DNA of 64,000 bases from a bacterium (GCA_004322275.1 SCTA01000035.1:1-64000), one strand, 5' to 3'. Positions 5,251 to 31,842 are shown, counted from the stretch's first letter. Notes: a model not told the origin generated them from the sequence alone. Numbers and translations: made by a program.

Positions 5251-8510
<3,260 letters not shown>

Positions 8511-28410: not shown

Positions 28411-28459
28411 GTGGGCTTTAGCCCATCGGGATTGGATCTTTAGATGGGCTAAAGCCCAT
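28411..28459. repeat. REP-like paired palindromes
   Basis: GTGGGCTTTAGCCCAT (28411-28426) and ATGGGCTAAAGCCCAT (28444-28459) are reverse complements over 15 bases, and each arm is itself nearly palindromic. They sit between truD and pspC. The pattern resembles REP elements moved by RAYT (IS200-like) enzymes; no such gene is in the window. Confidence 0.7.
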
Positions 28460-28716: not shown

Positions 28717-28756
28717 AAACAGCCCGTATGTGGCATCGTATGCCCACTCTAAGGCC

Positions 28757-28786
28757 TTTACAGAACCTATGTTTTTTATGTAATAT
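28757..28786 (+). promoter_or_regulatory. Candidate promoter of the restriction-modification island
   Basis: TTTACA (28757-28762) and TAATAT (28781-28786) are 18 bases apart, close to the sigma-70 consensus, and precede the small regulator gene. Confidence 0.6.
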
Positions 28787-28794
28787 AACATAGG
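28766..28794. promoter_or_regulatory. Inverted-repeat operator overlapping -10 and RBS
   Basis: CCTATGTT (28766-28773) and AACATAGG (28787-28794) are perfect 8-bp inverted arms with 13 bases between. The -10 box lies inside the interval, and the right arm runs into the AGGAGG ribosome binding site. That placement fits an autorepressor site for the ribbon-helix-helix protein encoded next, or an RNA hairpin hiding the ribosome binding site. Confidence 0.6.
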
Positions 28795-28805
28795 AGGTAA
28801 TGACT

Positions 28806-29003
28806 ATGCCAAAAGGAGAATCTGGTCGTCTTGTCATTGAGATCGAGCCACGCCTAAAACGCGAGTTGTATAGCGCTCTGGCTACAGAGGGGTCAACACT
28901 GAAGGCATGGTTTATCGAAACGGCCACTAACTACTTGCGTAACCGCAAACAACCTGCGCTTGTTTTTGGTGGTTCAGAGAACAAATCCAGGCAACAGTCA
29001 TGA
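28806..29003 (+). CDS. Small ribbon-helix-helix (Arc/CopG-like) regulator
   Basis: From the ATG at 28806 (AGGAGG 8 bases upstream) this is a 65-residue protein. A short beta-strand (RLVIEIEPR) is followed by two helices (LKRELYSALATEG and TLKAWFIETATNYL), the ribbon-helix-helix layout of dimeric DNA-binding repressors. An in-frame ATG at 28800 is too close to the ribosome binding site. It overlaps the methyltransferase gene (ATGA). It is a likely transcriptional regulator of the restriction-modification genes, taking the place of an HTH C-protein; an antitoxin role is an alternative. Confidence 0.7.
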   Translation: MPKGESGRLVIEIEPRLKRELYSALATEGSTLKAWFIETATNYLRNRKQPALVFGGSENKSRQQS

Positions 29004-30649
29004 ACTTTGTTGAAAATGAAACTTCTCAGAAGTTGCGAGGAGGCTACTACACACCTTCCGATCTCGCTGGATTTATTGCCCGTTGGGTTGGGCAGGGGAA
29101 TCCATCTAGTATTCTTGAACCTAGTTGCGGTGACGGAGCATTTCTGACAGAACTTGCGAAATGTCCAAGTACCGCGAGTGCAAATATTGTAGCATTTGAG
29201 TTAGATCGCAAAGAGGCAGGAATTGCTTCTCAGCGTGCCAAGGAACATGGACTCTCGGCATCTGTTCATGCATCAGATTTTCTCGGGTGGGCACTAGACC
29301 AGCTTGCCAGTTCCGGCACTCGATTCGATGCTGTAGTTGGCAATCCTCCATTCATTCGTTACCAATACTTGCCTGCTGAATTCCAAGATCGCTCCGAAAG
29401 AGTATTCAGCCGCCTCAATTGTAAGTTCACAAAACACACGAATGCTTGGGTACCCTTTATTCTAGCCTCCTTTGCAATGCTAAAGCGTGGCGGTCGTCTT
29501 GCTATGGTGGTTCCTTCTGAAATCATACACGTTCTTCATGCTCAATCTCTGCGCTCATACTTAGGTAAAGAGTGTCGTCGGCTTGTCATTATCGACCCCG
29601 AGCAACTATGGTTTGAAGACACCCTTCAAGGAACTGTTATCTTGCTAGCTGAGAAACGGCTATGTGATAGCGAAAAACCAGAAGGAGTGGGCATCATTCC
29701 AGTCCGAGCGCGCGAGTTTGTCTCGTGCGATCCAGCCGAAATATTCTCTACGCCAAAACCAATCAATGGAAAAACAGTGGCGGGCAAATGGACACGAGCA
29801 CTTCTAGACAAGGGGTCGCGTGACCTTTTAGACGAACTGATGGAACACCCTGATGTACACTGCTTTGAGGATATAGCTGATGTCGATGTTGGCATCGTTA
29901 CGGGCGCTAACAATTTCTTTCTTGTCACTGATGAGGTAGTGCAACAGTACAAACTTAAGGATCATGTTCATCCAATGTTTGGTCGTAGTGAGCACTGTCC
30001 AGGTGTCATTTACGACACTAAACAGCATCGGACGAATGCCCAAACCGGCAAGCCAACAAATTTTATCTGGTTTAAGAACTCGTCCGTAACTATAAGTAGC
30101 TCGGTAAAATCCTATATTGAAATAGGAGAACAACAGAAGTTACATACGAGATACAAATGTCGGGTTCGCTCACCGTGGTATTCAGTGCCCTCTATTTATG
30201 CAACCGAAATCGGGATGTTAAAACGATCGCACGATACCCCACGTCTTATATTTAACCGAATTGGTGCTTATACTACAGACACTGCCTACCGTATACGATC
30301 AAAAGGGGTCTCCGCCCAGAGGCTCGTAACGAGTTTTGTCAATCCCCTGACGGCACTCAGCGCTGAACTGGAAGGGAGACATTATGGTGGCGGAGTGTTG
30401 GAACTTGTTCCATCCGAAATAGAGCATTTGGCTATTCCGCTACCTGCAAAGACAAAACTCGATATCAAAAAACTTGATCATGCAGTGCGGAACGAATCAG
30501 CTGTAGATGTTCTGTCCTCACATGGTTTTCGTGTGCTCGAAGGTTTGGGTTTGTCCAAAGCCCGAAGTGACCAGTTGCTTGACAACTGGATTAAACTCCG
30601 TAATCGTCGCCATCGGATAACGAGTGGACAAGATTCCACGGCATTTTGA
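29000..30649 (+). CDS. N6-adenine DNA methyltransferase of R-M system
   Basis: The 549-residue protein has the gamma-class adenine methyltransferase order: a GGYYTPSDLAGFI entry, SAM-binding motif I ILEPSCGDGAFL (about 38-49), and catalytic motif IV NPPF (115-118), followed by a large C-terminal target-recognition region (about 250-549). It resembles Eco57I/TaqI-type modification enzymes. No nuclease motif was seen in it. It lies in AT-rich sequence unlike the flanks and ends exactly where the convergent nuclease gene ends, supporting one acquired unit. Confidence 0.88.
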   Translation: MNFVENETSQKLRGGYYTPSDLAGFIARWVGQGNPSSILEPSCGDGAFLTELAKCPSTASANIVAFELDRKEAGIASQRAKEHGLSASVHASDFLGWALDQLASSGTRFDAVVGNPPFIRYQYLPAEFQDRSERVFSRLNCKFTKHTNAWVPFILASFAMLKRGGRLAMVVPSEIIHVLHAQSLRSYLGKECRRLVIIDPEQLWFEDTLQGTVILLAEKRLCDSEKPEGVGIIPVRAREFVSCDPAEIFSTPKPINGKTVAGKWTRALLDKGSRDLLDELMEHPDVHCFEDIADVDVGIVTGANNFFLVTDEVVQQYKLKDHVHPMFGRSEHCPGVIYDTKQHRTNAQTGKPTNFIWFKNSSVTISSSVKSYIEIGEQQKLHTRYKCRVRSPWYSVPSIYATEIGMLKRSHDTPRLIFNRIGAYTTDTAYRIRSKGVSAQRLVTSFVNPLTALSAELEGRHYGGGVLELVPSEIEHLAIPLPAKTKLDIKKLDHAVRNESAVDVLSSHGFRVLEGLGLSKARSDQLLDNWIKLRNRRHRITSGQDSTAF

Positions 30650-31822
30650 CTAATCGATTTCAAGCACGAAGCGTGTTTGATCGTCTTCGTCGCGATACAG
30701 GGATAAAGTTCTACCGATGAGATCGCGGTGAGCAACATGCGCTTTTGCGACCCCCCAGCTTAAACGCGACATTGCATTATGCTGTTTGTACGTTTTAGTA
30801 TTTGTACTGGTGGTGTGCTTTACCCGCAGATCGAACTCACCGTGATTGAGTCCTTTTACGATAAGACTAAACTTTGCAACTGCATCTACTATCGTGGGTT
30901 TTTGAGGCTGGTTCCAATTCAGCGCCTGAAAAACCTCGTCTCTAAAATAGTGACGATGATCTACCTCTTCATCTAGAAGCCCTTTGTCTAAATTTATTGA
31001 ACCTGTGGAGTGAGTATTGGCTCCAGAGGGTATGTTAAGGTCTCGCTCTGTAAGAGGTTTGCTCTGCCAAACTAAAGCAAATTTTACTCCCGTAGGTGTC
31101 TGTGATCGAGTTGAAGTTGCGGCTTGTTTTGATTTATCCGGCGGCGGAGCAGAAGTGCGATTAACGGTTCGTCGCAAAATTGGAGGAACTTTCAACTTAA
31201 TATTTGCTAAACCGTCAGTTTGGCTGGAGCTAGTCGTCGAGACAGCATGTGGAGGGGAGGAGGTTGTCTCATCTAGCAAACGACCCTCTATATGCAATTT
31301 TGTCAATTCTTCATGAGTAAAAATGCGTTTAACATGATCAGGGTATTCACTTGTAATACCATCGAATGCAGTTTCTATATCACTAGCTAATTCAGCGTCA
31401 GAAGTGTCTGTAAGGTCTAGATCAAGAATAATGCTTGCTTCAATATTGTTGTTGAGGCCACCTAGTGTCATATTGGCGCTACCAACAATGACACGCGCAT
31501 AATGTTTTCCGCGAGCATAATATATTTTAGGGTGAAAAATTATGCGCATTCCACCCGTATCAACTACATTAACAGCCGCACCAAGATTAAGGAGATGTTC
31601 GAGTCCTTGCTTAGAAGTGATGTCGTTCCTGATTCCAGCAAAAACCTCCACTATCTGTGCAATTTGCTCGATGTTAGTTGAGATCAAACCAACGCCGCCA
31701 TGATTTACAAAAGCCACACTTAAAATAACTCTCTCGATATCAGGGCATAAGAAAAGCCATTCAACTGCTGCAAAATGAGTCTGAGCTGTAAAGCCTTGCA
31801 GCAAAAAATCCTTTTTAGCCAT
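30650..31822 (-). CDS. PLD-family restriction endonuclease-like protein
   Basis: From the ATG at 31822 this is a 390-residue protein. Residues about 1-170 are a phospholipase-D-type nuclease domain with one HKD-like motif: HPK at 97-99 and GSANMT at 114-119. A Ser/Thr/Pro-rich linker (about 200-270) leads to a C-terminal domain that may bind DNA. Single-HKD dimers include the BfiI and NgoFVII restriction enzymes. The convergent adenine methyltransferase gene abuts its stop with no spacer. A longer in-frame reading to 32227 is the antisense-frame shadow of ftsH on the same strand and was discarded. Confidence 0.78.
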   Translation of the reverse strand: MAKKDFLLQGFTAQTHFAAVEWLFLCPDIERVILSVAFVNHGGVGLISTNIEQIAQIVEVFAGIRNDITSKQGLEHLLNLGAAVNVVDTGGMRIIFHPKIYYARGKHYARVIVGSANMTLGGLNNNIEASIILDLDLTDTSDAELASDIETAFDGITSEYPDHVKRIFTHEELTKLHIEGRLLDETTSSPPHAVSTTSSSQTDGLANIKLKVPPILRRTVNRTSAPPPDKSKQAATSTRSQTPTGVKFALVWQSKPLTERDLNIPSGANTHSTGSINLDKGLLDEEVDHRHYFRDEVFQALNWNQPQKPTIVDAVAKFSLIVKGLNHGEFDLRVKHTTSTNTKTYKQHNAMSRLSWGVAKAHVAHRDLIGRTLSLYRDEDDQTRFVLEID

Positions 31823-31842
31823 TTCAGTACCTATCGCTCCAA

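Follow-up and report, generated by a model that had tools for sequence, protein, structure and literature searches.

The best explanation of the three-gene island at positions 28730–31842 of the window, the 64,000-nt stretch of bacterial DNA analysed here (GCA_004322275.1 SCTA01000035.1:1-64000), is an acquired type II restriction-modification (R-M) system in which a ribbon-helix-helix (RHH) protein would repress its own gene together with the modification gene, regulator and operator forming a portable unit. We consider this reading as a whole probable. The GC content of the island is 45.2%, against a mean of 58.4% (sd 1.7, minimum 53.5) in equal-sized pieces from the rest of the window, and GC3 is 0.46 for the RHH-like gene, 0.40 for the methyltransferase gene and 0.35 for the PLD nuclease gene, compared with 0.72–0.84 in the neighbouring truD, pspC, ftsH and aminotransferase genes. 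Composition alone excludes a chance origin of the island. The sequence-only reading had described an R-M system of foreign, AT-richer composition with a PLD nuclease and an RHH-like regulator, and all of this holds up.

The three genes were located where that reading had placed them. The RHH-like protein, a small predicted DNA-binding protein, is encoded on the + strand at 28800..29003 (67 aa); the ATG at 28806, which would give 65 aa, is the probable start, since it agrees better than 28800 with the Shine-Dalgarno sequence and with where the family begins. The end of this gene is joined by an ATGA overlap to the start of an N6-adenine DNA methyltransferase gene of the M.Eco57I type at 29000..30649 (+, 549 aa), which is predicted from this arrangement to be translationally coupled to the RHH gene. 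The gene of the putative BfiI-type PLD restriction endonuclease (30650..31822, −, 390 aa) is convergent with the methyltransferase gene, and the two stops abut exactly, TGA at 30647–30649 meeting the complement of TAG at 30650–30652. At its other end, the nuclease start lies 20 bp from the stop of ftsH on the same strand, and no promoter-like match was found in this ftsH-PLD junction. Just outside the island, between truD and pspC, a perfect 16-bp inverted repeat TGGGCTTTAGCCCATC / GATGGGCTAAAGCCCA spans window positions 28412–28458; its arm occurs in 16 copies in the genome and in none in the reversed control, and the repeat is most simply read as a dispersed REP- or MITE-like element.

The nuclease was compared with known PLD enzymes. 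In sequence it matches BfiI (2c1l) at 1e-7, a distant match of 34 bits confined to the PLD part, in which H97/K99 (HxK) and N117...E128 align to BfiI residues; the catalytic HxK, N and E are conserved in sets of 5 and 7 homologues. A structure model built from seven homologues (overall pLDDT 72) contains a PLD domain with pLDDT of about 85–95, an unstructured linker at 188–246 and a B3-like DNA-binding domain at about 248–390, the C-terminal domain having pLDDT of about 70–88. The model matches BfiI at 1.5e-10 over 412 columns, SauUSI, and the R protein of NgoAVII (4rct) at 5.7e-6, and the C-terminal domain by itself matches the EcoRII B3 domain at 0.008; TM-scores of the full-length structure matches are low, the two domains being joined by a free linker. 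The sequence-only reading had named membership in a lipid-metabolising PLD family as a finding that would speak against it, and we rejected this assignment because BfiI and other nucleases give the best matches in both sequence and structure.

In BfiI, a single metal-independent active site is built from two PLD domains, and the target is read by the B3 domains (PMC4081073, PMC4267653). The island protein shares with the type IIS enzymes BfiI and BmrI an N-terminal PLD domain with one HxK per chain and the N and E of the second motif, and a C-terminal B3-like domain, with no gene for a helicase partner beside it (PMC4081073). It also resembles the R protein of NgoAVII/CglI systems in joining PLD to B3, but those systems depend on a helicase/ATPase N-protein, and their methyltransferase is of the C5 kind (PMC4267653); the island has neither, and no helicase/ATPase gene of the NgoAVII/CglI kind was found in or beside it. 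From the BfiI match and the lack of a nearby ATPase gene, we infer that the PLD protein is a BfiI-type restriction enzyme with a BfiI-like mechanism. The island differs from BfiI, reported with two methyltransferases for opposite strands (PMC4267653), in having a single N6-adenine methyltransferase of the M.Eco57I type, and from BfiI and BmrI in having an RHH protein.

The methyltransferase is assigned to the N6-adenine, M.Eco57I type by its matches to PF22837 (5.1e-91) and PADLOC PDLC03267 (1.2e-193), its motifs EPSCGDG and NPPF in the gamma-type order FxGxG-like ... NPPF, and its M_Eco57I_C domain. Its homologues at 50–65% identity are always convergent with one of two kinds of partner: a PLD-B3 nuclease in Patescibacteria (L002/L003), Yoonia (L014), Roseobacter (L015) and viral contigs (L048/L049, L052, L053, L054), or a type IIG protein of ~1000 aa in Acinetobacter (L016), Psychrobacter (L017), E. 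coli (L021) and ETEC H10407 (L095). Thus, the nuclease partner of this methyltransferase family is exchangeable. The closest plasmid relatives (L016, L017, L021) carry the convergent IIG partner; the island has the methyltransferase family of Eco57I-like systems but a 390-aa PLD-B3 nuclease in place of the IIG enzyme. The combination of a PLD-B3 enzyme with an Eco57I-type methyltransferase is a new one of known parts, which makes the R-M system itself ordinary. The methyltransferase/PLD pair is also carried by roseobacter plasmids. Its Patescibacteria and roseobacter versions have no RHH protein of the window type; an XRE-type HTH protein is encoded immediately before the nuclease in Patescibacteria (L002 5774–5995, L003 2120–2347), with a LexA-like gene before the methyltransferase, and the regulator appears to have been replaced at these loci. 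The B3-like domain was also seen as a free protein of ~145 aa beside Eco57I-type methyltransferases (L019 3441–3875, L051 6587–7033, L054 7886–8326), where it may be a specificity factor, an inhibitor or a remnant.

The small protein is strongly predicted to adopt a ribbon-helix-helix fold. Its model shows a strand at ~5–15 followed by helices at 17–30 and 34–48, with pLDDT of 84–89. An hhalign comparison with RHH_1/ParG/CopG proteins brought the strand and both helices into register with a score of 19.3, compared with at most 8.0 in 20 column-shuffled controls, and with an E value of 0.001 but a probability of only 8%. Foldseek and PDB-sequence searches with the small protein gave nothing significant; for Foldseek, such a null is frequent when the query is one half of an intertwined dimer. 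There was no match in Pfam, NCBIfam or PADLOC, and only weak matches to HicB-like antitoxins in PHROGs (best 0.039). Clear relatives nevertheless exist, share the signature xGxSGRIVIEVDPxLKxxLYxxLAxxGxTLKEWF and are annotated as hypothetical; the family that they form with the small protein goes unrecognised by Pfam, NCBIfam, PADLOC and PHROGs.

Nearly every member of this family carries a 14-bp palindrome, ATGTAATRTAACAT, ahead of its start codon. An EM motif search of 15 representative upstream regions scored 302 bits, compared with 169–178 for upstreams shuffled in 20-bp blocks. The site was reached in at most 1 of 2000 shuffles for 12 of 19 upstreams, and 0–1 mismatch to the palindrome was rarely or never reached in 2000 shuffles of single loci. 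In the window, the putative operator ATGTAATATAACAT, conserved upstream of RHH homologues across phyla, lies at 28778..28791 (+). It is perfect, and nowhere else in the 2.88-Mb genome is ATGTWAYRTWACAT matched with one mismatch or none; other places have two mismatches and are no more numerous than with the reversed-pattern control. The operator is the core of a wider inverted repeat, CTATGTT...AACATAG (28767–28793), and abuts the Shine-Dalgarno sequence AGGAGGT (28792–28798). It covers the −10 box of a putative promoter at 28757..28786 (+), formed by a −35 element TTTACA at 28757–28762, an 18-bp spacer and a −10 element TAATAT at 28781–28786. This placement recurs: a −35 match of at least 4/6 accompanies the operator at 79% of loci compared with 13% of control positions, and the best −35 match 16–18 bp upstream averages 3.9/6 at 14 loci compared with 2.5 at control positions.

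Upstream regions of distant loci are alike at the operator only. Three loci (L086, L088, L090) have 36–91 bp of upstream sequence and the RHH gene in common, after which the methyltransferase differs, suggesting that regulator and promoter move as a block. Our best reading is that regulator and operator constitute a portable promoter-regulator cassette. A search by DNA only with the doubled operator returned three contigs, all already known by protein, which is consistent but too dependent to count. The DUF499 branch has a related form of the operator, ACGTNACGTNACGT, and L054 a rearranged one; these altered operators weigh against the best explanation, as do the absence of the RHH protein from the Patescibacteria and roseobacter pairs, the orphan member described below, and the null results for the small protein in Pfam, NCBIfam, PADLOC and Foldseek.

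On the explanation that we favour, the 65–67-residue protein would act as a ribbon-helix-helix autorepressor whose dimer binds ATGTAATATAACAT over the −10 box, and the repressed promoter would transcribe the RHH gene together with the methyltransferase gene that overlaps it. Both proteins would be made upon entry of the cassette into a new cell, and later the methyltransferase would be held at a set level; the RHH protein may also act by activation in place of repression. The methyltransferase would protect the site of the nuclease, in which the B3 domain would bind an asymmetric sequence and the enzyme cut beside it through one metal-independent active site formed by the dimer, as in BfiI; the system is probably type IIS-like. 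The nuclease would stand outside the control of the operator and, in the window, is probably transcribed from or through ftsH.

This last point divides the favoured explanation from one in which the RHH protein controls the whole system including the nuclease, as an activator or timer like the HTH C proteins, by way of a weak unrecognised site or the convergent transcripts. C proteins are likewise small, autoregulatory and encoded ahead of R-M genes (PMC3874152), and, with convergent genes whose stops abut, methyltransferase transcription could act on the nuclease in antisense. However, no operator was found in the 250 bp preceding the nuclease gene of the window (closest match 6 mismatches), L049, L053, L054, L014 or L052, or the IIG genes of L016 and L021, and the RHH gene also heads loci that have no convergent nuclease (L089, L092 and the DUF499 systems). 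We regard whole-system control as unlikely. The sequence-only reading had proposed an RHH controller of the system; its RHH-like regulator stands, but control of the nuclease is unlikely because the RHH gene overlaps the methyltransferase gene, the operator is found only before this pair, and the nuclease gene follows ftsH by 20 bp.

That reading had further called an RHH controller with a metal-independent nuclease less usual. RHH control extends beyond this island: many other modification genes, some of them partnered by IIG instead of PLD enzymes, have this small protein and operator in front of them. In plasmid records found by searches with the RHH sequence, the protein heads modification or DUF499 genes in 21 of 21 cases, the next gene being an Eco57I-type methyltransferase in 14 and a DUF499 gene in 7. 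The order DUF499-DUF3780-DUF1156 is intact at three of these seven; in the other four, from Pseudomonas/Stenotrophomonas, either a decayed remnant of DUF499 is present or no DUF499 is annotated, and two of the four were checked. DUF499 and DUF3780 define type-2 BREX-related systems (PMC12839542). On the Pseudomonas aeruginosa and Stenotrophomonas plasmids L060 and L062 (4001–8132), the RHH gene persists in front of a decayed DUF499 gene, near a gene for a group II intron reverse transcriptase.

A methyltransferase gene is next to the RHH gene at all nine viral loci, comprising three of Eco57I type, two N6-C5 fusions and one each of IIG-like, C5, beta-class and D12-pair type, and the C5 locus carries a divergent vsr. 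The plasmid and viral members lie immediately upstream of their neighbours in the same direction, and the spacing ranges between −11 and a few tens of bases. INPHARED phage records contained no RHH homologue, and IMG/VR contigs are therefore the basis of the phage association; repeating the viral scan with a wider alignment added no RHH loci. Across 5426 E. coli genomes, the RHH protein and the methyltransferase were each found in 28, in the same strains among the matches listed. The 395 genomes of the phylum of the window yielded the RHH protein in the window genome and G249 only, and the class-level genome search covered 12 genomes. In G249 (L104, about 6920–7090), the homologue is an orphan with a perfect operator and no modification gene within several kb. 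ParG-type RHH genes also precede the methyltransferases of L014, L015 and L017; they are parts of parA-parG without the operator and were not counted.

The orphan, together with the weak PHROG matches to HicB-like antitoxins, would suit an antitoxin- or phage-type RHH repressor that adjoins methyltransferases only because both are common cargo of mobile elements. Random cargo would not be expected to keep a constant position and a common operator, and every plasmid and viral member found directly precedes a DNA-modification or DUF499 operon on the same strand; we find this account improbable. Still less can be said for the PLD protein as a modification-dependent or accessory nuclease beside an orphan methyltransferase in an RHH-controlled epigenetic role, which, although PLD nucleases occur also in SauUSI, DISARM and DUF499 systems and the B3-like domain stands alone beside methyltransferases in L019, L051 and L054, is made very improbable by the full-length similarity to BfiI and R.NgoAVII, the lack of an adjacent helicase/ATPase gene, and the conservation across phyla of the catalytic residues and the tail-to-tail pairing with the methyltransferase.

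The acquired R-M system of the favoured explanation likely came from mobile elements. No full-length relative of the nuclease was found in 98 relatives searched, among them one congener and three members of the family, and two of the 98 gave short PLD-domain matches only; the sequence-only reading would have been contradicted by the same genes at this locus in most relatives with matching composition, and the search went the other way. We rejected vertical inheritance because the nuclease gene is absent from these 98 relatives and the composition differs. In order-level relatives, truD retains an upstream flavin-reductase-like neighbour and ftsH often an upstream aminotransferase. The two genes lie apart in the relatives examined, where no truD-ftsH adjacency was seen, so the junction at the island is not common to relatives. 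Neither flanking direct repeats nor an integrase was found at the island ends, as the sequence-only reading had stated; what can be added to its unmarked arrival is that vehicles of the same cassette are visible elsewhere, on phage contigs and plasmids, which makes mobile elements the likely source. On two unrelated viral contigs, the full RHH-methyltransferase-PLD cassette adjoins a gene that we read from its sequence as a terminase-like large subunit (L049 7882–9702, L053 7940–9349), and the nuclease gene lies downstream of that gene and runs in the same direction.

The island resembles C-protein-controlled R-M systems in having a small autoregulator gene before the R-M genes and a palindromic site over the promoter. 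It differs in that C proteins are helix-turn-helix proteins that time the nuclease (PMC3874152), whereas the small protein is RHH-like and coupled to the methyltransferase, with no operator found before the nuclease in the window. The HTH fold is absent from its model, and the protein would work like a controller but lies outside the HTH C-protein family. As with Omega and PaaR of three-gene toxin-antitoxin operons, which bind repeats in their own promoter (PMC3874152), an RHH repressor gene precedes a protective gene; those proteins serve toxin-antitoxin genes and here DNA methyltransferases are served, with no detectable sequence relation shown. No RHH regulator of R-M systems was found in the open-access literature searched, and within that literature a regulator family with an operator conserved across unrelated modification systems looks undescribed.

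HTH C proteins and self-repressing methyltransferases are the usual explanations of how a new R-M system can come on without the host being killed. If our explanation is true, there is a third solution, one RHH repressor and a fixed operator reused before methyltransferases of C5, N6 and N4/N6 type and before a BREX-related system, and the operator with an ORF of ~65 aa annotated as hypothetical would be a tag for finding modification systems. The broader proposal, for and against which we see about equal weight, is that the family and its 14-bp operator are a portable control cassette for DNA-modification genes generally, regulator and operator travelling as a unit and being placed before unrelated type II methyltransferases and DUF499/DUF1156 (BREX-related) genes on phages, plasmids and chromosomes in at least two phyla. 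Modification control would then be a transferable module independent of the enzyme, and elements with no other DNA in common should have a single motif bound by a single protein. Since the operator is common, the modification gene of a newly arriving element that bears this cassette should be repressed by a copy already resident in the cell, which would be the equivalent, on the methyltransferase side, of C-protein incompatibility; mutual interference is expected among elements that carry the cassette.
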